Virus record (IMG/VR): IMGVR_UViG_3300009091_000034
Coordinates: 1-37,962 of that record
DNA: 37,962 nucleotides
Strand: one strand, 5' to 3'
DNA from: a virus
In this document: in pieces, positions 9,575-29,094 of the stretch
Numbering within the stretch: the first letter of the stretch is position 1
Layout: every line of letters begins with the position of its first letter
The notes under the pieces: generated by a model
The model's database searches: none
The model's input: only the letters and a program-made list of their open reading frames with translations
What the model was told of the DNA's origin: nothing
Made by a program: the position numbers and the translations under genes

Positions 9575-9746
9575 TATTACAGCTATTGATGATGAAGGGG
9601 TTGTTTGGTTTCGGCATGAAATGGATACTCCCCATAGAACTTGGATTACTTGCATGAATTGTTTTAAGCGTGTTAAAGTCTATTGGTATGATTATCCCCA
9701 GAGCATTCTTAAAATTGGTGACGAGTGTATAGAGTGGGAGGAATAA
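9552..9746 (+). CDS. small hypothetical protein with one CxxC pair
   Basis: A 64-residue protein starting at ATG 9552 behind TTGGAGGT, within the end of the upstream glycosyltransferase. It is rich in acidic and aromatic residues and has one CMNC pair near residue 34 plus a single cysteine near residue 59 (GDECIEW), so any metal site would be incomplete or shared. No recognisable domain. It is the first of three consecutive tiny genes leading into the large terminase, linked by one-base TAATG overlaps. A small terminase or packaging partner role is possible from position only. Confidence 0.6.
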   Translation: MELRRINDITAIDDEGVVWFRHEMDTPHRTWITCMNCFKRVKVYWYDYPQSILKIGDECIEWEE

Positions 9747-9916
9747 TGAGTTGTCCTAAATGCAAGAGTGAAAAAATAACTACTATATTCAGTATTCTTG
9801 CTGCAACTTACCATGAATATGAGTATATGTGTGAAGAGTGCTTTTTCACTTGGAAAGAACGACTAGGAGAACAGGAATATTATATTTGCCGCGATGAATT
9901 TTATGGAGGAAGATAA
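9746..9916 (+). CDS. small zinc-ribbon protein (56 aa)
   Basis: A 56-residue protein. ATG 9746 is chosen over an in-frame GTG at 9725 because GGGAGG sits 3-4 nt before it and it shares the A of the upstream stop (TAATG). CPKC at residues 3-6 and CEEC near residue 34 form a two-knuckle zinc ribbon of the kind found in transcription-factor-like and phage regulatory proteins. A short acidic tail follows. Its neighbour at 9916 has the same N-terminal pattern (MSCP-x-C), so the two may be diverged duplicates. Function unknown. Confidence 0.65.
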   Translation: MSCPKCKSEKITTIFSILAATYHEYEYMCEECFFTWKERLGEQEYYICRDEFYGGR

Positions 9917-10128
9917 TGAGTTGTCCCCGGTGTAGTAAAAATCACTACAATACTTTTAAAATTAACCGATATAATATAGTGATGCCAGTTAATAAGTGCC
10001 TCATTTGTGGGTTCTTATGGATTGAAGACAAAGATATACTTGGAGTCAAGGGATTGGCGAAAGCCGAGTCGAAGAAAATATTTATAGACACACTTAGGAA
10101 CATGGGGAAGTATAATGACACAAGCTAA
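9916..10128 (+). CDS. small zinc-ribbon protein (70 aa)
   Basis: A 70-residue protein starting in the upstream stop (TAATG) with TGGAGGAAG as ribosome binding site. MSCPRC and CLIC (about residue 28) make a zinc ribbon, followed by a basic helical tail (GLAKAESKKIFIDTLRNMGK) that could bind nucleic acid. It overlaps the large terminase gene by 14 nt. In many phages the small terminase occupies this slot, but there is no helix-turn-helix typical of that protein here, so I do not name it so. It looks related to the preceding gene. Confidence 0.62.
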   Translation: MSCPRCSKNHYNTFKINRYNIVMPVNKCLICGFLWIEDKDILGVKGLAKAESKKIFIDTLRNMGKYNDTS

Positions 10129-12625
10129 ACTATCATCTGTAGCTTTAGAAAAGATTGTTGACAAAATTGTTGACCTTTCTCAGTATATGGGGGAGGTTAA
10201 ATTTTACCCCTACCAATTACCATTCGCACGAAGACTCACTCAGAGTCTCGTAACCAATGAGGGTGCAACCCTCACCGCCTTATTTTCCCGCCAATGTATC
10301 GCAGAAGATACGCTTATTATGAATAGAAATGGCCTTGTCATGCCTATTCAAAAACACTCTGACGCATGGAAAACAAAAGAATTAGCAGATATTTATGAGA
10401 TAAAAGTTAAGGGGGGACATGTTATCCGCTGTACAGAAGAACACCCTATCTCAACCCCAGAAGGATTTGTTCCAGCGTTCTGCCTTAAAAAATATGACAA
10501 AGTAATTGTCCTTGATAAATGGGATAAATTTGGGGATGGGATTGTGCCTCTTGATAATGGGGGAAGCCTTTTTATAACAGGTAGTTTAGCCGAGTTAGTA
10601 GGCTGGCTTACAGTCTACATCGGGAGGAGTGAGGAGGTAAAGATAAAAGTTGGTAAAGATAGGATTAACCCTATTCTTGAGTCGTTCTTTCCTGACTGTA
10701 AAAAGAGAGTCACCAAGAATACAATAACTATAACCATTAGTGGAACCCTCAAGAAATTTCTCAAAGCAATGAAGTTCAATTCCGATGGGTTTCCCGAGAA
10801 TGTTAACTTCTTTACCAAGGCCCAACTAATACGTTTCTTTTACCCTCTATTTCTTATCCAAGGAAAGAGCTATAAAAAACCGAGGACTGTCAAAACTATC
10901 CTTAAGGGAAGAAATGCACGATACCTGGAGTTTTGTAAGGAGCATTTGAACAAGCTAGGGCTACATGGGGCTGTCGATGTTTGGATAGGGGATTGCTTGA
11001 TTTTTCAAGCATCAAGAAATTACCAAAGAATGAAAGAGCTATTTGGAGACTTACTTCCAGAGAATTACTTTCCCCCATTATATATTCCAAGAAAGCATGT
11101 AGATAGAAGTTTTGAAGGCCCAGATGGAGAGATATTAACAGTTGCTCAAGTCTATTCAGTTAAGAAACTAGATGAACAAATGCCAGTCTGGGATACTACC
11201 ATTGAAGATAAGGGATGGTTTTTAGCTTCTGGTATTAAAGTACATAACTCAGGAAAAACCCAAGCTGTAGCTATGATTACTGCTGCTTGTATGGTGGTCT
11301 TACCATCTTTAGCTGAGAAGTTTCCAGACCAGTTTGGTATGTTCATAAAAGGATTCTGGGCAGGATGTTTTGGTCCTATTGGTGAGCAGGCAGTAACGAT
11401 GTTTGACCGCGTTCATTCTGTATTCACTACTGATAACAGTAAGAGGCTATTTATTGAAGAGTTAAAGATGCCTATTCCCGCGCAGGGGGGAGCAAGAGGA
11501 AACTTAATTAGACTTAGAAATAAGTCTTTTATTCGGTATCAGTCTGGGGGTAAGAGAGCTAAGGTAGAATCCAAGACATACCATCTTATCATCTTAGATG
11601 AATGTCAGGATATGGAAGCCTTTAAAATCCGCAAGAGTATCATCCCTTCTGGTGCAGCAGTAAACGCTACCATTGTTGCTACAGGAACTCCCGATATTTA
11701 TATCGGATACTTTTACGATACTATCGAACAGAACAAGATTCTTGATATCACAAACCCAGGACAAAGCCACTTTGAAGTTGACTACCTTACTGTGCAGAGA
11801 TACAACCCAATGTACAAGAAGTTTATTCAGAAAGAAATTAAACGATTAGGGATAGACTCTGATGAATTCAAGATGGCGTATAGACTGATATGGCCGATTA
11901 CAAAAGGGATGGTATTTAGTAAGGCTCAACTAGAGGAAAAGGCTTACGATAAATCCTTAAAAGTTGTAAAAGAATACAAAGAAACTCCGTGTATAGCTGG
12001 GCTGGATTTAGGAAAAAGCCAAGACTCTACTGTAGTCACCGTACTAAAAGTAGATTGGAATGAGGCAGACGAAGAGGGGAATGTACCCAAACAAATTCTT
12101 AACTGGTTAGAATTAGAGGGAGATAACTGGGAAGACCAGTATGATAAGGTTGTAGACTTCTTAAGTAACTATTGGATTGAGACTTTAGTTTGTGATTCAA
12201 GCGGTGTAGGCGACCCTGTAAGGGAACATTATGCTGTTCTTCTTCCTCAAATTAGCGTGGTTCCTTTTGTTTTCAGCCCAACAACTAAGGATATTGGCTA
12301 CAAGTATTTCATTCAGGAAGTAAATAGTAGACGAGTAGTAATCCCTGCTCATCCTCACGTAAGAGACACGAAGAAGTTTAAAAAGTTTGAGCAGCAAATG
12401 ACCACTCTAAAGAAGAAATATAGCGGAAAGTTTTTAAGTCCTACCTCTGTAGATGAAGAGAAAGGTCACGATGATTATCCTGATTCTCTTATGCTTGCGG
12501 TTTTCGGAACCTACTATGAAATAATGCCAGAGATTGAAATTGACGATAATGATATTTATAAGACCTATAGAGATCATAAGGATTTTTTTGGAAAATCTTA
12601 TGCTGATATTATTAGAAGGAGGTGA
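10115..12625 (+). CDS. terL: large terminase subunit (TerL), interrupted by an intein
   Basis: An 836-residue precursor; without the 318-residue intein the mature protein is 518 residues, a normal TerL length. The intein splits the Walker A loop: residues LFSRQ (56-60) rejoin with SGKTQ (379-383) to give RQSGKT. Downstream are Walker B LIILDECQDM (D495, E496), motif C ATGTP (about 522-526) and the RNase H-like nuclease residues AGLDLGKSQD (D631), VCDSSGVGD (D694) and GHDDYPDSL (D786-D790). TerL cuts concatemeric DNA and pumps it into the prohead through the portal. The start has GGGGAAG 5 nt upstream and overlaps the small zinc-ribbon gene. The only GATC found in the window lies near its 3' end. 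Confidence 0.93.
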   Translation: MTQAKLSSVALEKIVDKIVDLSQYMGEVKFYPYQLPFARRLTQSLVTNEGATLTALFSRQCIAEDTLIMNRNGLVMPIQKHSDAWKTKELADIYEIKVKGGHVIRCTEEHPISTPEGFVPAFCLKKYDKVIVLDKWDKFGDGIVPLDNGGSLFITGSLAELVGWLTVYIGRSEEVKIKVGKDRINPILESFFPDCKKRVTKNTITITISGTLKKFLKAMKFNSDGFPENVNFFTKAQLIRFFYPLFLIQGKSYKKPRTVKTILKGRNARYLEFCKEHLNKLGLHGAVDVWIGDCLIFQASRNYQRMKELFGDLLPENYFPPLYIPRKHVDRSFEGPDGEILTVAQVYSVKKLDEQMPVWDTTIEDKGWFLASGIKVHNSGKTQAVAMITAACMVVLPSLAEKFPDQFGMFIKGFWAGCFGPIGEQAVTMFDRVHSVFTTDNSKRLFIEELKMPIPAQGGARGNLIRLRNKSFIRYQSGGKRAKVESKTYHLIILDECQDMEAFKIRKSIIPSGAAVNATIVATGTPDIYIGYFYDTIEQNKILDITNPGQSHFEVDYLTVQRYNPMYKKFIQKEIKRLGIDSDEFKMAYRLIWPITKGMVFSKAQLEEKAYDKSLKVVKEYKETPCIAGLDLGKSQDSTVVTVLKVDWNEADEEGNVPKQILNWLELEGDNWEDQYDKVVDFLSNYWIETLVCDSSGVGDPVREHYAVLLPQISVVPFVFSPTTKDIGYKYFIQEVNSRRVVIPAHPHVRDTKKFKKFEQQMTTLKKKYSGKFLSPTSVDEEKGHDDYPDSLMLAVFGTYYEIMPEIEIDDNDIYKTYRDHKDFFGKSYADIIRRR
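10295..11248 (+). other. intein in the TerL Walker A motif, with degenerate LAGLIDADG region
   Basis: Residues 61-378 of the terminase precursor. Block A begins CIAEDTLIMNRNG with C61 as the first splicing nucleophile. Block B is HVIRCTEEHPISTPEG, with the T-x-x-H pattern (T107, H110). Block F is VWDTTIEDKGWFLASGIK and block G ends VHN at 376-378, followed by extein Ser379. All splicing residues are present, so it should be active. Between blocks lies about 150 residues where a LAGLIDADG endonuclease normally sits: LAELVGWLTVYIG (158-170) and IRFFYPLFLIQGKS (239-252) keep the helices, but the acidic residue at each helix end is missing (VYI and Q249). The homing endonuclease is therefore probably inactive. 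Confidence 0.9.
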
Positions 12626-19927: not shown

Positions 19928-22900
19928 CTGATAGAGAATACAAATTAATTGTTTCTTTAAAAGACAGAGCCTCTGCACAGGCAAGAATATTGCAGAGAAA
20001 TCTGCAAGGTCTTAATGCTAATTATAAGACAACTGTAACTATGGGGGTTGTAGATAACATCACCCCTAGACTCGGCATTATAGCTAGAGCCTTTGATGCA
20101 ATCCGTTTAAGGAAAGTTGTTGACGTTTCTGATTCTGACGTAAATAAAGTAGGCAGACTAAAAAATCTTATTAGTGGCATCTTCAATAGTGGGGATGGCA
20201 AAAGATGGTATGATAAGACCTTTGGTTATCTGGACAGTTTAGCAAAGAAAGCGGATAAATGGGCAACAATATTTGTTGGAGCATTTGCCGCAGCCGGGGC
20301 TGTTGGAGCTATTGCAGCTATTGGCGCAGGAATACCAATAATTGGTAAAAACCTAGTCAAAGTCAACAGCGAAATGGAAACGTGGACTGTTTCCCTTCAA
20401 ACCACTCTTCACTCACTTACTGCCGCAAAGAAAGAAATGGCAGATATAGTACAATTCGCTAAGGAAACTCCTTTCCAGATTAAACAGATTACTGAAGCAG
20501 TAGTAAAACTATCTGCTTATAATATGGACACTAAAAAATGGTTAAAACCATTAGGAGATATGGCTTCTGCATTTGGTAGAGATATCACCGATGCAGTAGA
20601 AGCTGCCGCAGATGCAATGACTGGTATGTTTAGACGAGCATTGTCCTACGGGATTAAAATGGAACGCGCTGACTTTAAAGCAGGCGGTAAATATGCAGGC
20701 ATGACTTATGCTGATGCGTTTTTGATGGAAGTAGAGAAGAGATTCTCTGGTGGTATGCTACTTCAATCACAGACGCTTAAGGGGCTTTGGTCAAATATTA
20801 AGGATGCCTTATATATTGGGTTCCAGCAAGCTACGGCACCAGCATATGCTTTAATTAAAAATGAAGTTAAAAAACTTTATGATGTATTAAGCGATGCAGC
20901 TACCCAGCAGAAAATTGTAGACTTTTTCTCTAAATTTAGTGACCTTCTCTATAAAGTAATAGGGGCTGTTCACAACTTCTACAATTATTTTAAAGCTCAC
21001 CTTCTTCCAATGCTTTTAGCACTTGGGAAAACTTCATGGTCAATATTTCAAGTTGTTGCTCAAATGGCAAAAGACCTTCTTGAGCATACTCTTGTACCAT
21101 TACTAACAGTAGTTTCAGAAGTAATAACTCTGTTTGCTAGATTACTCGGTGTAATCCAGCCCGTATTAAAATACCTCATAATGATTGGGGTAGCAGTTAA
21201 GATATTCCAGCTTCTTAACCTACACGTTAGTAAAACAGCGACAAGTATGGTAGCTGCTGGAAAAGCCACTAGCGTATTTGCAGCATCAATGAAAATGTTA
21301 GCTACAAGAGTTGCTGTTTTAGCAGCCTCTTTTGCTGCCTTATGGGTAATAAGTAGCTGGCTTGAAGTAAGAGATAATATAAAAGAAATCGGTAATGCTT
21401 TTGATGATGCTGCTGGTGGGGCTGGAAGATTAAAAGAATATCTTCAAGATTTAGGTGACGTTTCTGGATTTTCTCTAAAAGATATGACTAAAGCGGCTAT
21501 GGTCGCTAAAGAGTATGGCGACAATATGACAAATGCCTTAGAGATAGGAACCGCTGCTGCCGCAGAAGCTCAAAAAGGGTTTGCACCTAACTTAAATCTT
21601 CCCCCAGAAGAGGCTGTTAGATTAGTTAGTGAATTATCTAAGGCAATGATTAGAAATGGTGATACGCAAGCAGAAATGCGGAAGAAAACACTAGAAGCCG
21701 CAGGAGCATTAATATACTTCCAAAATAATGTTGATAAAACAGGGGTTACATTCAATAATTTCTCTACAAATATGGAGAGATATAGTGAAGTAGTAAGAAT
21801 GTATGGGGATAATATCTCAGAGCTTACTGATTTAATTACTCTATATGGTAAAGCTATGAAAGAAGCTAATGAGTCAACAAATATTAGCCCATTAATGGAA
21901 GCTATTGAAATGCTTATGCATCCAACTACAGATATGCTTCTCACTCTTCCTATAGATACCTGGATTAGCCATACTACAGACCAATTAAAAGACATGGAGT
22001 ATGTCTTAAATAATATGGTTCCTCCAGAACTTATGCAAGAAGGAAGAGAAGTTGAAAGAATGGAATTCATTAAGAGCATGAAAGATAAGGCTCTATATAT
22101 TGAAGAGTTAATGAAGGAAGCTGGCAAAGGTGGAGAAACCATTGCTCAAGCAGGAAAAACTATGGTTGATGATGCCCGTCAAGTAAGAGACTATATGAAA
22201 GAAGCAGCAGATTATGCCAAGCTATCACTTACTGGCCCATCTGCTACAGCACGACAGATACTAGAAACTCAACAATCAGGACTTCCTATAGCTCCCGCAG
22301 TAGGAAAAACACTAGGAACAAAAGCAGCCGAAGAATCCTATGATGATGTAGCTTCTGCAATTATTACAAGTGCAGGTATCTTAGCTGCTACATATACAGC
22401 ATTCAAAATACTTAACAAAACCACAATAAAAATTGCTGGGTATGTAAAACAAACCGCCGTGGACCAATACAGAATAAGAACAGAGCCAATAGTTGCGGCT
22501 AGAGTAGCAAAAATGCTTGCAAAACAGCCAGAAGTTCCTGAATGGGAACAAATGATGAATCTACGTGGTGCTGGTAATGTTAGATGGGCAAGATTAGAGG
22601 CTCGTAGAACAGCCCAATCTTATCCTAAAGATATGACCAAGCGTATAGAATATAGCATGAAACAACAAACCCAAGCTATAGAAGATTTGGGAAAGAAAAG
22701 AATAGCAAAACTAGAAAAGCAACTAGAAAAAGCTAATGCAAATCTAGCAAAATTATATAAACGGTCTTCCGAATCCTTTAAACCACTTACTGCCAGATGG
22801 ACTGGTACTATGTGGATTGATGAGATAACAGAAGAAATTGAAACTCAGATGCTACGTATGATGGATGAAGTAGCAGGACCAGTTGAACCCTTCTATGGGG

Positions 22901-25900
22901 GTATGTTAGATAGAATTAAGGGTGTTGTAGCTCAACAGCAATTAGTAAGAAGACAATTTTCTAATCTAAGAAATTTAAAAGAGGATGACATAGAAAAAGC
23001 TGTTCTTAAATATAGTAAAGAAAGACTAGGTTATGGAAAAATAATAAAACCTGGATATGAGACTGAAGATTACTTTATAGCCAAAAGAAAAGAAATAAGA
23101 ATTGCTACAATGAAAGTAGAAGAGGCTGAAACTGCACTAGCCTTAGCTAGAAATGATATTACTAGACAAATACAAGAACTACAAAAAGCACATCTTGAAT
23201 TAGTAGATGCTATTAAGAATAAGCATGTTCCCGCACATATGAGAAGTTTTGCTGATTCAATAGTAGACTTAACTAAAGACTTAAAAGAGGCTTATAAAGA
23301 CTTAAATGCATTCAGTAAAAAGGCACCAACAGCAGCGAAAGCAGTACCTAGTACGGGAAGAAGGATTATTGGTTCTTCCATAATTACTGGTCTTCTTGAT
23401 GCCCCAGCATGGAGAAATATAGGTGCGCTATTCACAAGAGGATTCAACCTTAAAAATGCAAGAACAACCACAGTTAGCGCCGAAAGAATCATGGGTGATA
23501 TCGACGCAACTAGAGATATAGAACTAGCAAAAAGTCGAGTCTTTACCTTAACAGTCATGCGCGCTTGGACTAAGCATGTTGTTGCTCCACTTAAACAAGT
23601 TTTTGGATTTTCCAATATCACCAAAGGAATCAAAGGGCAAGGTGGAGCAATAAGTCTTGAACCCTTAGCAGTTATAGTTGATAAAGTAACTGGTGCTTTC
23701 AAAAGACTCTATAAAGAACAAGGTGGATATATAAGATTTGGGGACGAGTTTGAAGTAACCCAAGACTTGATAGACCTTAGAGAAAAAGCTAAAGATTTCT
23801 TCGGTAAAACCCAAGTTAAAACAGATATGGGAGGTTATTTACGACTCACTAATCCTAAAATGCCACTAACTATGAAAGATTTCTTAGCAGAAAATGGAAA
23901 ACTAAGTAAAAGCTTTGGTAATTTAGTTGACAAAATTGCAAGATTAAACCTAGTATTTAAAGGTGGCTATGGAGGGTCAATATATAAGAGGGTAGTTACT
24001 TTTGAAGAGGATTTTGATACTCTATTTGAACATCTTTCTACTTTAGGACATGAAATAGGGCATGATTTAGAAAGAGGCACCGTTAAACAACTTGGACAGC
24101 CTAGACGACCCAGAATAGACTATTCTCTAGATTGGGAAGAACGAGAAGCAAAATATACTGCGGATTTGGCAAGATATGAAAGACAATATAAAGCCTGGGA
24201 TAAGTCTCTTACTAGAGGTACACAAAGCGCACTTGGAAGAATGCGTATAAATATAGGAAAATTAGATGAAGAAATTCTTAAGGATGCCGTTAGAACACAA
24301 GAAGTTCTTGAACAAGAGATAGCATTACTTAGACAAGAACAACAGGCTTGGAAAGCAGGCTACAATATATTTAAAAAGGCCGCCGCTAATACACCAGAAT
24401 TAACTAGACAGTTTGCTGTAGATGCAGTTAAGAGTTATGGTGGTTATTTTAGTGCCGTAGTAAAACATTTTGTTGCGGCAGGAAAAAGTGGGCGTGATAT
24501 TCCAAGAGAATTACGTCCAACAGTTTTGGCAAGAAATATTATGGATAGGGGTGGCCTACAAAATGAACCATTACCACAGTACCGCACCCCTACAGGAGTT
24601 AGAGTAAAGCCCTTTAAATTAACGCCCGTTGATACAATACCCCAAAAAATGATAGCACAACTAAAAAATCTCTTAAAAGATGAGCGTGGAGCTATAGGAT
24701 TAGGAAAAGAAGCTAAATTAACTCCAGCTATAGAAAAACTAGAAAAAACCTTAACAGAGATTAGTAGTAAACAGGGATTCATAATGGGAAAAGTTCCTCC
24801 TGATTTTGCTGTTAGAGCATCGACACAGATAGCCCCCGATAATCTACTGGGTGAATGGCAGAGAGAGGGCTGGGTAACTACAATTTTTGGCAAAAACATA
24901 GCTGTAGATAGAGAAAATGTAAATAATATAATTAAAACTCTTGAAAAGGGACAAAAAATAGAAAAGAGAATTCTTTTAGAGATAGACTCAATTGGAAATA
25001 TAAGACTCGCAGACGGAAACCATAGAACTATTGCAGCTTATGAAAAAGGAGTAAAAGAATTAAAGGTAGAGTTTCGTAAAGATTACGCAGGAAGAGTACT
25101 AAGTAGGGGAGGAGTGTTTCCCGGAGAACTCCCTAGTGTCTTAGAACTTAAAGGGACTTCTTTAGGAGATAGATTACTAAGACTATTTAAAGATGAAAAA
25201 GGAGCTATCAGTTTAAAGGGGATAGAGAGTATATTCACTAAACTTACTGATACCACTCAAAAACTAAATGAGACTCTTAAAGGATTAACCTCTACTATCA
25301 AAGAATCTATTACAAAACTTCCTTCTATACTTACTCCAGGAGGAAGGGCTGCTAGAGAAATGGGGGCTATGTTTGCCCCTGAAGCAGAAATTTTTGGTAA
25401 GTTTTTAAAGCCATTAAGAGAAGTAGCAGAAGAAGCAGATATCTTTGGCCTTATTGGAAAAGATGCAGAGAGGTTCTTTAGCACGGGAGCTAAGGATATA
25501 TTTGTCCCCGCAGTTGAAAATGCCGCTAAAATAGCTGCTACACAAGCTGCGGAAGCAGCAGTAAGAACTTCTTTTGGAGAGGTATTTCCAAAAGGATTAG
25601 GCGCACTTATGAAAACTGCTCCAATGAAAGCAGTTGGTGCAGCTACAGCAGTTACTATTCCTATAGATATCTTAAGATTGATTCAATGGGGGTATGGTGG
25701 AAAAGAGAAATTCCAGCAGGCATACATGGGTGAGAACTATGAAAATCCAGCAGCAAGAGCGGCTGAAGATGTAAAAGTGGCCTTTATGACAGGACTATCA
25801 GATGCTATTGGTGGATTTTCTACAGCATTTCTTGCTGCGGTTCCAGCATTAGTAGTGCCTCAAGTTAGAGGATTCTTTGTAGACCAGTTAGAAATGGGGG

Positions 25901-28900
25901 CTAAAGCTTTCCTTGATATGATTAAAGCCCCTCAAGAGATACTTTATGAGGCATTCGCAGAACAACTTAGGTTAACAATGCACGAAAAAGAACTTGAAAA
26001 AATAGCAGAATGGAAGCAAACACATCAAGAAGAATACTATCAAAACTTAGAGAATCTCTACATTCAGAATGTTAAAAATATGCCTGAAGGATTCTTAAAA
26101 TTTGAAAAGCAGCTTGGTATTTTAATCGCCAAAGCAGCAGGAACAGAATTATCAGCATATGAACAAGGACAAAGAGCAGCCCAAAGAACAAAACTTGGTC
26201 TACCTATTACAGCAGAAGAAGCTTTACGAGGGCCAGCATATCAGGCACCCCAACCAAGTTTCCAAGAACAAGTGTATGCTCAGAGAGAAGCACAAAGACA
26301 AGCACAGCGAGAATTGCCAAATATTCCTGGTACTAATTACAATATGGAACAAGCAATAGAGCTACTAAAAGAATATGATGCCGCATATAAGAAACTAAAT
26401 ATAACCATAGAAGAACAAACCGCAAAATCTCAGGAACTAGAGATACAAATAGGTAATTTGAACCATGAAATTCAAGGTTTAACTCTTGAACTTAATAATG
26501 CTACTAGCATTATGAGTAGAATTTCTGGCGTGTGGGATTTAATGGAAGCTATAAATGAGACACAGCTATTCTCGGATTCTACTTTAGCCTTAGAGTCAGA
26601 AGTTGCCAGATTAAATGTAAGACTTGCTGAACAGCGGTCTGCTTTACAGCCTTTACAGGAACGTCTACATGCTGTTACTAGTCAATTTGACCGTGTAAGT
26701 GAGAAAATTAGTAAGGCCCAAGAAGACCTTGATAACTTCCTCAATCCTAAAATTGCTGGGGAAGGGGTTTATCAAGACCAACTCTTTGCAATTGATAAAC
26801 AACTAAATGCTTTACAACGGAAAAGGCTAGACTTAACTCTATACTTAAGGTCACTAGAAGAGGCAGGCTTAGGAAATACTGATATCTACAGACAAGCTGC
26901 TGCACCACTTCAGGCTATAGATGACGAGATAGCTAAACTACAAAATGATAGAGACAAAATTGAGTTAGATAGAAAGATTGCAACTCAAGATATAGTGCAT
27001 TGGCTTGAAAAAGAGCGTGATACCCGTGAGGAAATGAATGAGTCTGAGATTAAAGCGGGAGTTAGAAAAGCTAAAGCAGTATTAGCAGCCAACAAACCAC
27101 TATTAGAAATGTATAAAAGACAAAAAGAAGCTATTGAAGAACAAATTAGAAGACAAGAAGAGTCAATACAAAGAACAGAAGACCACATAGCTAGGCATCA
27201 AAATGAACTTGACCTAATTAATGCAAAAGTAACCGCTGATAACGCAGAAGTAACAGCTATGAAGAAAAAGGCAGAGTGGCAAAAACGGATTGCAGATTTA
27301 ACAGGACAAATTAATGATAGTCAAATGGTTGCAGCCGCATATGCATATGCTTCTGGAACCATGAGTAGAGAGCAGTTTCAATCGCTCTACTCTGTGTATG
27401 TTCAAGCCGCAAATAAAGCTGCTCAACTAACAGCAGAAATAGAGGGAAAACAAGGAGAAGTAGCAAAAGCAACCTTTGATAAAGACACTATAGATAGATT
27501 ACTCTCAGAGAATCAGAGTGCGGCCTCAGAATTACAGGCTAAAATAGTTGGCCTTACTGATGCTATTAATGCTCTAGTAGCAGGGGTTAGTGTAAAGGGT
27601 CTGGCTGGAACTACCCAAGAAGCATTAGAGAATGTTTTCGGAAAAGGTGTAGCAGCTAAAATAGATTTAATGGTTGGTTATTTAGCTGAAGCTGCTGGAA
27701 GACCAATTCCTCCAGGAATAAATATGGGTTCAGCAACCCAAAAACTTGCTACTGCACATGCTGAACAAGCTGTAAGTGATGCTTACGCTGGAAAAGTTCC
27801 CTTCTCAGAGGGATGGTCTAATGCAAAAACAGGAGTAGCAGATGCAGGACATGCTGCTGAGATAGCTGCTGGAAAATTTGCAAATGTAAATGCTGTAATT
27901 GCAACCACTAAGGACACAGTAAGTACTAGCAATACTACAATGACAGAATCCGGGAGAAAACTAGTAGAAGCTTGGCAAAGAGCTTATGCTAATATGGCTA
28001 CAAGTAATACCAAACTTGATACCTCAAATGCTACTACTAGTAAAAATGCAAGCGCACAATTCTTAGCTATGCAGGCCCGTCTTAATGAGCTTGATAAAAC
28101 TGCTGCAACTACAATGCCAAGTGTTAACAAGAGTGTTCAAACAGGAATTGGTGCTGCCGCAAGTGCAAATGTAGGCGCTTTCTACACTTTAGGAAGAAAT
28201 ATTCTAAATACCTTTGCAAAAGGTTTAGGATATACTATTCCTACTGGAATTGGGGCTGGAACTAGTGGGGGAGTTAGGGCTGGTGGGGAAGGTCAATCAC
28301 TTCCTAATGTAACACAACTTGCTGGTGGGCCAGGACAGATGATGCAGAATGTACTCTCAGATATTCTTAATCGTTCTAATCTCAGCAACTATATAACCAT
28401 GTTTCCTAACTACCCTGTAAATACAGGAAATGTAAACACAAATAAGACATACGAACCTGGACATTTGCAGCCAGAAGCAGGAATGGTAATAGAAGCACTA
28501 AAGAACGCTTTTGGTCCCATTAGTTATGGTGGTAGAGCGAGTCGTACTGGTGGTTATGTATCACAACATCCAGTAGGACTTGCTGCTGACTTATTCTCCA
28601 ACAAATCAAAGATGGACCAGTATGCTAATTGGTTAGCTGCTAACTTCAACACTCTTAAATTAAGATATATTATCTGGAACAATAGAATAACGAGTTCTGG
28701 AGCTAGAGGATGGAGGGCTTATACTCCCCCAGCAGGAAAACCAAATACTCCTACATGGAGACATGAAGACCATGTTCATGTAAGTGTAAAAGACTGGATT
28801 CCTGGCGACCCTTATGTTCAGAGATTTCATTCAGGAGGAATTACACCAGGAGCTAGATTCCAAGAAAGTCTTGCATTACTTCGTGGACAAGAAGCTGTAG

Positions 28901-29094
28901 TACCACTTGAAAGTGGCGCAATACCTGTTAAAATAACAAAGAGTGATAATGAGACAATCATAAACAACTACTTTGATTCAGGAGCTTTTAACTTTGAAGT
29001 ACGTAATGATAAAGAGTTGGAAGAACTTAAAGCATTCTTACTTAAACTACTTAACAATCAGAACCCATATAAATTTAGTCCATTCAATGCTTAA
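19924..29094 (+). CDS. tape measure protein with embedded protease-like, ParB-like and LAS-peptidase-like domains
   Basis: A giant protein of 3056 residues if started at ATA 19924 (5 nt after GGGAGG); the first canonical start, TTG 19990, has no ribosome binding site and would remove the typical opening ADREYKLIVSLKDRASAQ. Order: tape measure N-domain with FAKETPFQIKQITEAVVKLS (about 175-195); hydrophobic segments near 113-140, 410-430, 455-475, 810-830 and 1955-1985; helical regions; a GHEIGH zincin-like motif (H1376, E1377, H1380); a ParB-like segment with DGNHRTIAAYEKG (about 1697-1709); long coiled coil (about 2140-2520); LAS-type peptidase domain (about 2845-2965: H2882, D2889, H2947, H2950, H2952); then the usual GG-rich tape measure end. 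It sets tail length and is ejected during infection. Confidence 0.88.
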   Translation: MADREYKLIVSLKDRASAQARILQRNLQGLNANYKTTVTMGVVDNITPRLGIIARAFDAIRLRKVVDVSDSDVNKVGRLKNLISGIFNSGDGKRWYDKTFGYLDSLAKKADKWATIFVGAFAAAGAVGAIAAIGAGIPIIGKNLVKVNSEMETWTVSLQTTLHSLTAAKKEMADIVQFAKETPFQIKQITEAVVKLSAYNMDTKKWLKPLGDMASAFGRDITDAVEAAADAMTGMFRRALSYGIKMERADFKAGGKYAGMTYADAFLMEVEKRFSGGMLLQSQTLKGLWSNIKDALYIGFQQATAPAYALIKNEVKKLYDVLSDAATQQKIVDFFSKFSDLLYKVIGAVHNFYNYFKAHLLPMLLALGKTSWSIFQVVAQMAKDLLEHTLVPLLTVVSEVITLFARLLGVIQPVLKYLIMIGVAVKIFQLLNLHVSKTATSMVAAGKATSVFAASMKMLATRVAVLAASFAALWVISSWLEVRDNIKEIGNAFDDAAGGAGRLKEYLQDLGDVSGFSLKDMTKAAMVAKEYGDNMTNALEIGTAAAAEAQKGFAPNLNLPPEEAVRLVSELSKAMIRNGDTQAEMRKKTLEAAGALIYFQNNVDKTGVTFNNFSTNMERYSEVVRMYGDNISELTDLITLYGKAMKEANESTNISPLMEAIEMLMHPTTDMLLTLPIDTWISHTTDQLKDMEYVLNNMVPPELMQEGREVERMEFIKSMKDKALYIEELMKEAGKGGETIAQAGKTMVDDARQVRDYMKEAADYAKLSLTGPSATARQILETQQSGLPIAPAVGKTLGTKAAEESYDDVASAIITSAGILAATYTAFKILNKTTIKIAGYVKQTAVDQYRIRTEPIVAARVAKMLAKQPEVPEWEQMMNLRGAGNVRWARLEARRTAQSYPKDMTKRIEYSMKQQTQAIEDLGKKRIAKLEKQLEKANANLAKLYKRSSESFKPLTARWTGTMWIDEITEEIETQMLRMMDEVAGPVEPFYGGMLDRIKGVVAQQQLVRRQFSNLRNLKEDDIEKAVLKYSKERLGYGKIIKPGYETEDYFIAKRKEIRIATMKVEEAETALALARNDITRQIQELQKAHLELVDAIKNKHVPAHMRSFADSIVDLTKDLKEAYKDLNAFSKKAPTAAKAVPSTGRRIIGSSIITGLLDAPAWRNIGALFTRGFNLKNARTTTVSAERIMGDIDATRDIELAKSRVFTLTVMRAWTKHVVAPLKQVFGFSNITKGIKGQGGAISLEPLAVIVDKVTGAFKRLYKEQGGYIRFGDEFEVTQDLIDLREKAKDFFGKTQVKTDMGGYLRLTNPKMPLTMKDFLAENGKLSKSFGNLVDKIARLNLVFKGGYGGSIYKRVVTFEEDFDTLFEHLSTLGHEIGHDLERGTVKQLGQPRRPRIDYSLDWEEREAKYTADLARYERQYKAWDKSLTRGTQSALGRMRINIGKLDEEILKDAVRTQEVLEQEIALLRQEQQAWKAGYNIFKKAAANTPELTRQFAVDAVKSYGGYFSAVVKHFVAAGKSGRDIPRELRPTVLARNIMDRGGLQNEPLPQYRTPTGVRVKPFKLTPVDTIPQKMIAQLKNLLKDERGAIGLGKEAKLTPAIEKLEKTLTEISSKQGFIMGKVPPDFAVRASTQIAPDNLLGEWQREGWVTTIFGKNIAVDRENVNNIIKTLEKGQKIEKRILLEIDSIGNIRLADGNHRTIAAYEKGVKELKVEFRKDYAGRVLSRGGVFPGELPSVLELKGTSLGDRLLRLFKDEKGAISLKGIESIFTKLTDTTQKLNETLKGLTSTIKESITKLPSILTPGGRAAREMGAMFAPEAEIFGKFLKPLREVAEEADIFGLIGKDAERFFSTGAKDIFVPAVENAAKIAATQAAEAAVRTSFGEVFPKGLGALMKTAPMKAVGAATAVTIPIDILRLIQWGYGGKEKFQQAYMGENYENPAARAAEDVKVAFMTGLSDAIGGFSTAFLAAVPALVVPQVRGFFVDQLEMGAKAFLDMIKAPQEILYEAFAEQLRLTMHEKELEKIAEWKQTHQEEYYQNLENLYIQNVKNMPEGFLKFEKQLGILIAKAAGTELSAYEQGQRAAQRTKLGLPITAEEALRGPAYQAPQPSFQEQVYAQREAQRQAQRELPNIPGTNYNMEQAIELLKEYDAAYKKLNITIEEQTAKSQELEIQIGNLNHEIQGLTLELNNATSIMSRISGVWDLMEAINETQLFSDSTLALESEVARLNVRLAEQRSALQPLQERLHAVTSQFDRVSEKISKAQEDLDNFLNPKIAGEGVYQDQLFAIDKQLNALQRKRLDLTLYLRSLEEAGLGNTDIYRQAAAPLQAIDDEIAKLQNDRDKIELDRKIATQDIVHWLEKERDTREEMNESEIKAGVRKAKAVLAANKPLLEMYKRQKEAIEEQIRRQEESIQRTEDHIARHQNELDLINAKVTADNAEVTAMKKKAEWQKRIADLTGQINDSQMVAAAYAYASGTMSREQFQSLYSVYVQAANKAAQLTAEIEGKQGEVAKATFDKDTIDRLLSENQSAASELQAKIVGLTDAINALVAGVSVKGLAGTTQEALENVFGKGVAAKIDLMVGYLAEAAGRPIPPGINMGSATQKLATAHAEQAVSDAYAGKVPFSEGWSNAKTGVADAGHAAEIAAGKFANVNAVIATTKDTVSTSNTTMTESGRKLVEAWQRAYANMATSNTKLDTSNATTSKNASAQFLAMQARLNELDKTAATTMPSVNKSVQTGIGAAASANVGAFYTLGRNILNTFAKGLGYTIPTGIGAGTSGGVRAGGEGQSLPNVTQLAGGPGQMMQNVLSDILNRSNLSNYITMFPNYPVNTGNVNTNKTYEPGHLQPEAGMVIEALKNAFGPISYGGRASRTGGYVSQHPVGLAADLFSNKSKMDQYANWLAANFNTLKLRYIIWNNRITSSGARGWRAYTPPAGKPNTPTWRHEDHVHVSVKDWIPGDPYVQRFHSGGITPGARFQESLALLRGQEAVVPLESGAIPVKITKSDNETIINNYFDSGAFNFEVRNDKELEELKAFLLKLLNNQNPYKFSPFNA

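Follow-up and report, generated by a model that had tools for sequence, protein, structure and literature searches.

Why does a phage packaging ATPase gene carry, in the middle of its Walker A motif, an intein whose homing endonuclease no longer looks able to cut, and what keeps this domain in place? The window analysed here is the whole of one virus record, IMG/VR record IMGVR_UViG_3300009091_000034, of 37962 bases. Its TerL gene (10115-12625, plus strand) encodes 836 residues in a single frame. The TerL exteins match terminase large subunits (phrog_2, E 3.6e-25; Terminase_6C) and the next gene after TerL encodes the portal protein; therefore, TerL and portal belong to a packaging module of the kind usual in tailed phages. 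The G+C content was 0.38 for the intein and 0.39 for the extein, and a match to phrog_17415 spans the intein junction of the window. Elsewhere in the window, two small cysteine-rich ORFs (9725-9916 and 9916-10128, with CPKC/CEEC and CPRC/CLIC patterns) lie immediately upstream of TerL, genes for a group 1 glycosyltransferase and, after it, a protein with an RNA ligase domain lie well upstream of TerL (315-2247), and an ORF of 3034 residues between the tail-tube gene and later genes (19990-29094) has no Pfam match at E<=0.01. The parts of the TerL gene outside the endonuclease domain are as follows:

10115-10294, plus strand: the 60-residue TerL N-extein, whose last residues, FSRQ, open the Walker A motif; this sequence is uninterrupted in relatives.
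10295-11248, plus strand: intein, 318 codons without a stop, in frame with both exteins (precursor residues 61-378).
10295-10570, plus strand: N-terminal splicing (HINT) part, with C1 at 10295-10297 and block B T47 at 10433-10435 and H50 at 10442-10444.
11081-11248, plus strand: C-terminal splicing part, with block F D300, the block F His replaced by G307, and H317-N318 at 11243-11248.
11249-12625, plus strand: C-extein of TerL, 458 residues and the stop, beginning with Ser+1 and the SGKT part of Walker A.

The junctions read FSRQ/C and HN/SGKT, which places the insertion between RQ and SGKT of Walker A. The intein was matched by Pfam Intein_splicing PF14890 (40.4 bits, cut-off 35.8, E 3.2e-10), the only domain that Pfam found in the insert, and by NCBIfam intein_Nterm TIGR01445 (27.7, cut-off 24.5). 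The class 1 residues C1, block B T47/H50 (TxxH), H317-N318 and Ser+1 are present, and the splicing residues are invariant across the window clade where readable (C1 is readable in 4/5 copies, as L013 starts at residue 39). The block F His was not present in any of the 9 aligned copies (the window and all eight relatives, the live-looking ones described below included), each having Gly307. Since this His is common among class 1 inteins and absent from some working ones, its replacement is not treated as excluding class 1 membership. The insert is a class-1-type cis-splicing intein in TerL Walker A by these marks; site and splicing residues are read from the sequence itself, and from them we infer splicing. 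An earlier note on this DNA had placed a 318-residue intein at 10295-11248 between RQ and SGKT, and coordinates, length and insertion point proved exact. The residues it listed in precursor numbering (C61, T107, H110, V167-Y168-I169, Q249, H377, N378 and S379) are as stated; its view of intact splicing residues holds for all those it named and misses the commonly conserved block F His. A chance or artefactual insert was also considered and was ruled out because the profile matches exceed curated cut-offs, relatives have empty sites and separate contigs carry the same intein.

Because Walker A is split, no ATPase would be expected before splicing, and Kelley et al. 2016 argue likewise for TerL inteins (PMC5050341, in extract). 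As a separate observation, C46 (10430-10432) and C63 (10481-10483) are invariant in 5/5 inactive-looking copies and absent from 4/4 live-looking ones. A redox switch through C46/C63 of the intein is conceivable, and a C46-C63 disulphide in the clade inteins was considered as an idea only.

TerL loci in IMG/VR were surveyed over the best 80 of 173 matching loci. Among these 80, the window-clade members L003, L004, L005, L020 and L021 all carry the intein (5/5), and 74 of the remaining 75 loci are uninterrupted, reading [RQ]/[SA]GK[ST]; the sole exception, L044, is interrupted there by a different intein. TerL loci of cellular genomes were without the insert in 18/18 cases, so that comparison with homologues lacking it, the check proposed in the earlier note, revealed the empty site in 74/75 and 18/18 loci. 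The Streptomyces phages BRock and pSt2308 also read FSRQSGKT, uninterrupted. Four further, separate TerL lineages (L003, L013, L020 and L021) carry the same intein at the same site; its length is 318 residues in the window, L003 and L020, 316 in L021 and at least 280 in the truncated L013. These four inteins are 55-69% identical to that of the window, and the C-exteins 74-89%.

For counting, loci with inteins identical to that of the window (L001, L002 and the repeats L004-L006, L097, L098, L129 and L130, hence also L004 and L005 above) were taken as one lineage with it, and repeats of L003, L013, L020, L021 and L103 (L099-L102, L123, L127, L131, L133 and L134) were counted once. All counts omit L014-L019, which match the splicing domain only over a short length, and L104 (1342-4821), a phage DNA polymerase-like protein that surfaced in the intein scan with an apparent intein having an HN/S junction. 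When the intein was searched against annotated phages, only short splicing-domain matches were obtained, and the C-extein of L103, used as query for close relatives, found only L103 itself.

More distant TerL genes carry inteins at RQ/SGK[ST] too, three detected by alignment scans (L103, L128 and L132) and one by the empty-site check (L044). They are 355-369 residues long, alignable throughout at 22-36% identity to the window intein, and Asp-Gly ends both LAGLIDADG helices in each. The LAGLIDADG_3 E values were 6.5e-16, 3.9e-17, 5.6e-16 and 3.4e-13 for L044, L103, L128 and L132, respectively. The penultimate His is absent from the L044 intein (Ser-Asn). These four are called live-looking because they keep both acids and match the profile; they may be able to cut.

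Aligned with the four same-site inteins that keep them, both catalytic acids are missing in 5/5 clade inteins. At the first site, the MAFFT alignment with those four has the Asp-Gly pair deleted, two residues, rather than replaced; the ungapped alternative gives Asp to Tyr/Asn. No match to PF14528 LAGLIDADG_3 was obtained at E<=1 in any of the five clade inteins. The features of the domain are as follows:

10580-11080, plus strand: LAGLIDADG-fold domain without catalytic acids, residues 96-262, from model pLDDT and fold matches.
10613-10621, plus strand: V107-Y108-I109, the end of the first LAGLIDADG helix, where the Asp-Gly of live-looking relatives is missing.
10859-10861, plus strand: Q189 (precursor Q249), the second catalytic Asp position, which is H, N, K and N in L003, L020, L021 and L013, respectively.
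10862-10906, plus strand: lysine-rich predicted hairpin G190-K204 (K191, K194, K195, K200 and K204) after the second helix, invariant in 5/5 inactive-looking copies.

The AlphaFold2 model (five-row alignment) had a mean pLDDT of 71.8, with 77-93 over most of residues 90-220 and a poor splicing part (34-48 over residues 1-30, about 30 over the last 18). Its two long helices end at 108 and 189, the expected positions of the missing acids. Using Foldseek, with VIA-align Z scores, the model resembled TliVMA (15.2), PI-PfuI (14.6), WhiA (13.2), I-DmoI (12.9) and PhoVMA (12.3), and the LAGLIDADG fold is predicted to be kept. Very probably, this endonuclease can no longer cut. The dead-looking endonuclease of the earlier note thus stands, both catalytic acids being lost by comparison with four same-site inteins that have them; of its VYI at the first site the missing acid is right, and the Asp-Gly aligns as a deletion and not as a replacement.

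The nine-intein tree groups the five inactive-looking copies as one clade with support 100/100, and one state change is needed. Within this clade C-extein identity exceeds that of the endonuclease domain (HEN) in 10/10 pairs (e.g. 0.89 vs 0.74). Live-looking pairs show the opposite, the HEN being more similar than the C-extein in 6/6 (0.53 vs 0.33 for L103/L128, with some margins as small as 0.36 vs 0.35), which fits mobility of the live-looking copies. The window groups with L003, and L020 with L013, in intein and extein trees alike, with modest support in places, and the eight-taxon extein tree, with its long outgroup branches, leaves the branching order within the clade unsettled. Since extein identity exceeds HEN identity in 10/10 clade pairs, the simplest reading would be a single loss of both acids followed by vertical descent. 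The domain also became shorter: HEN length is 155-157 residues in the inactive-looking clade vs 178-187 in the live-looking four, and several loops of both LAGLIDADG repeats are shorter than in the live-looking relatives. An element past its homing stage, as previously suggested, agrees with the lack of both acids in 5/5 distinct clade members and with the matching intein and extein trees.

The inactive domain was then compared at the codon level. Synonymous sites of the HEN are saturated in 9/10 clade pairs, and the dS/dN ratio is that of the window-L003 pair alone: dN 0.17, dS 1.2-1.3 and dS/dN 7.5-7.8 (bootstrap dN/dS 0.05-0.20), with a dS/dN of 9.3 for the splicing part. HEN differences of this pair at codon positions 1, 2 and 3 were 33, 23 and 70 of 167 (p 2e-9), and positions 1 and 2 lag behind position 3 in all 10 clade pairs. 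Invariant columns were not significantly fewer in the HEN (61/167) than in the splicing parts (47/112; p 0.38). As a yardstick, Butler et al. 2006, comparing a shorter region of inactive yeast VMA endonucleases, obtained dS/dN below 4 in 70/74 pairs (PMC1508164, in extract). By that yardstick the inactive domain looks constrained, under purifying selection about as strong as that on the splicing domain, and so it would not be simply a leftover. HEN identity exceeds HINT identity in 6/6 live-looking pairs and in 1/10 pairs of the inactive clade (two ties); the extra constraint of a working nuclease therefore appears to be gone, and some relaxation is visible in the inactive clade. The former nuclease probably still does something other than cutting. 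The interpretation of the earlier note, accordingly, survives as to a non-cutting intein past homing, and had missed that the inactive domain is constrained (window-L003 dS/dN about 7.5).

For the reason behind this constraint, we consider it fairly probable that the element is a Walker A cis-splicing intein whose homing ancestor lost its acids once, that it has descended vertically, and that the domain is kept folded via HEN-HINT mutualism. The ancestor would have been a homing intein, of a family that entered TerL at this exact point, and in the ancestor of the window clade the nuclease would have lost both acids together with about 20-30 residues, mostly in loops. Since the loss of the acids the intein would have been inherited along with the host gene, and the splicing domain would have come to need the former nuclease domain for folding or splicing; excision through C1, N318 and Ser+1 would rebuild FSRQSGKT. 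Extracts of the literature describe such dependence: the TliVMA intein mostly fails to splice once its HEN is removed (PMC8966425), the HEN is required in TFIIB inteins (PMC6801210), and Gogarten and Hilario 2006 gave a neutral route to it, described for intron maturases (PMC1654191). The dependence is not automatic, because the degenerate PhoVMA intein splices without its HEN (PMC8966425, in extract). The weakest form of mutualism could be fold maintenance only, as an insert that misfolds would disable an essential protein, and mutualism is favoured because no new activity is needed. As for the intein as a whole, its retention because excision must be exact is plausible, as is splicing as a timer for packaging.

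An unlikely alternative is that the domain is kept for nucleic-acid binding, in non-cutting, DNA- or RNA-responsive splicing or in terminase assembly. The lysine hairpin of the clade presumably lies at the DNA-facing side of LAGLIDADG proteins, and its K191, K194, K200 and K204 are clade-invariant and non-basic in 4/4 live-looking relatives. Invariant Lys/Arg amount to 9/15 in the second repeat vs 1/13 in the first (p 0.006; the comparison was chosen post hoc). The HEN pI is 9.3-9.9 in 5/5 copies vs 5.3-7.1 for the splicing part, but live-looking relatives are also basic (7.9-9.7), so the pI may be inheritance. For comparison, extracts of PMC8966425 give a pI of 5.45 for the non-DNA-binding PhoVMA and 10.23 for the active TliVMA, and splicing of the RadA intein responds to ssDNA (PMC8987985, in extract). 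One of the best fold matches (Z 13.2) is to WhiA, itself a degenerate LAGLIDADG protein; however, WhiA binds DNA mainly by a separate HTH domain (PMC3781837, in extract), and no HTH was matched here by Pfam. The shortened loops of the LAGLIDADG repeats likewise count against nucleic-acid binding. Carried further, the inactive nuclease would be a nucleic-acid-sensing gate, with the lysine hairpin and the basic second repeat binding DNA or RNA and thereby holding back or releasing splicing. If this very unlikely gate existed, the packaging ATPase would arise only once DNA is there to package.

According to the homing-cycle model, an intein endonuclease decays once its spread stops. A plain remnant of that cycle, in which the nuclease lost its activity after fixation and has since drifted neutrally, the element persisting because it is rarely excised exactly, would account for the lost acids, the shortened loops and the occupied site in all five clade members, and precise deletion is likely needed for removal (Barzel et al. 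2011, PMC3229294, in extract). Neutral drift, however, sits poorly with a dS/dN of about 7.5 in the one measurable pair, when 70/74 inactive yeast VMA pairs fall below 4, with the codon-position bias in all 10 pairs and with the near-constant HEN length of 155-157, and we regard such a remnant as slightly less likely than a domain kept for nucleic-acid binding. That the nuclease still cuts via acids placed elsewhere, e.g. E114, which adjoins the first site shortly past the first helix and is invariant in 5/5, is highly improbable, as Asp/Glu are absent between residues 177 and 204 (second site) in all five copies and the intein descends vertically.

Both degenerate endonucleases and HEN-HINT mutualism have been described before. 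The closest known systems are the mycobacteriophage inteins TerL1-a and TerL1-b (Kelley et al. 2016), likewise Walker A inteins of phage TerL; in extracts of that work (PMC5050341) five TerL inteins spliced, TerL1-b among them, and both tested ones cut. The TerL1-a insertion separates Lys from Thr in the P-loop, whereas the window insert precedes SGKT, and TerL1-b cleaved intein-less DNA, whereas the window intein is without both acids (PMC5050341, in extract). The Alexandravirus TerL inteins (Erwinia phage Alexandra, NC_047995, and Dickeya phage AD1, NC_048054) occupy the same Walker A point, directly before SGKS, but at about 220 residues by eye they are too short for a whole HEN, and only their C-terminal part matched the window. 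In our scans these two phages gave L124 and L125 (1382-4210), with the short TerL intein at GQR/SGKS. Two gut phages have TerL inteins as well: in L008 (2234-4957; Bacteroides phage BS162P1, OP172706) the intein follows VQK in the ATPase domain of a gene annotated only as hypothetical protein, and in L009 (2237-4954; MT835482), the second gut phage, it follows MLSA in the ATPase domain. Both have live-looking LAGLIDADG motifs and lie at two different points, each distinct from the window site.

Two other proteins share the loss of catalytic residues. The PhoVMA intein (PDB 7qst; model Z 12.3), like the window intein, is a full-length intein with a folded HEN that has no catalytic Asp; unlike it, PhoVMA is an archaeal VMA intein with acidic pI, no DNA binding and HEN-free splicing (PMC8966425, in extract). 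A PhoVMA-like loss of basic charge was sought in the clade HENs and was not found (pI 9.3-9.9). WhiA (PDB 8dy7 and 3hyi) resembles the window domain in a LAGLIDADG fold that was retained with its catalytic residues lost (PMC3781837, in extract), and differs in being a cellular transcription factor with its own C-terminal HTH and in not belonging to an intein. In the literature on inactive but constrained intein endonucleases and on TerL or P-loop inteins (titles and abstract starts, subscription journals mostly outside the scope), we recognised none at this site and found no description of an inactive TerL endonuclease constrained across a clade.

In conclusion, five inactive-looking and four live-looking inteins share one codon junction in one protein family, and the inactive group stays constrained. 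This set permits a direct test of whether a selfish nuclease is captured, after cutting ends, as an essential splicing part or as a sensor.
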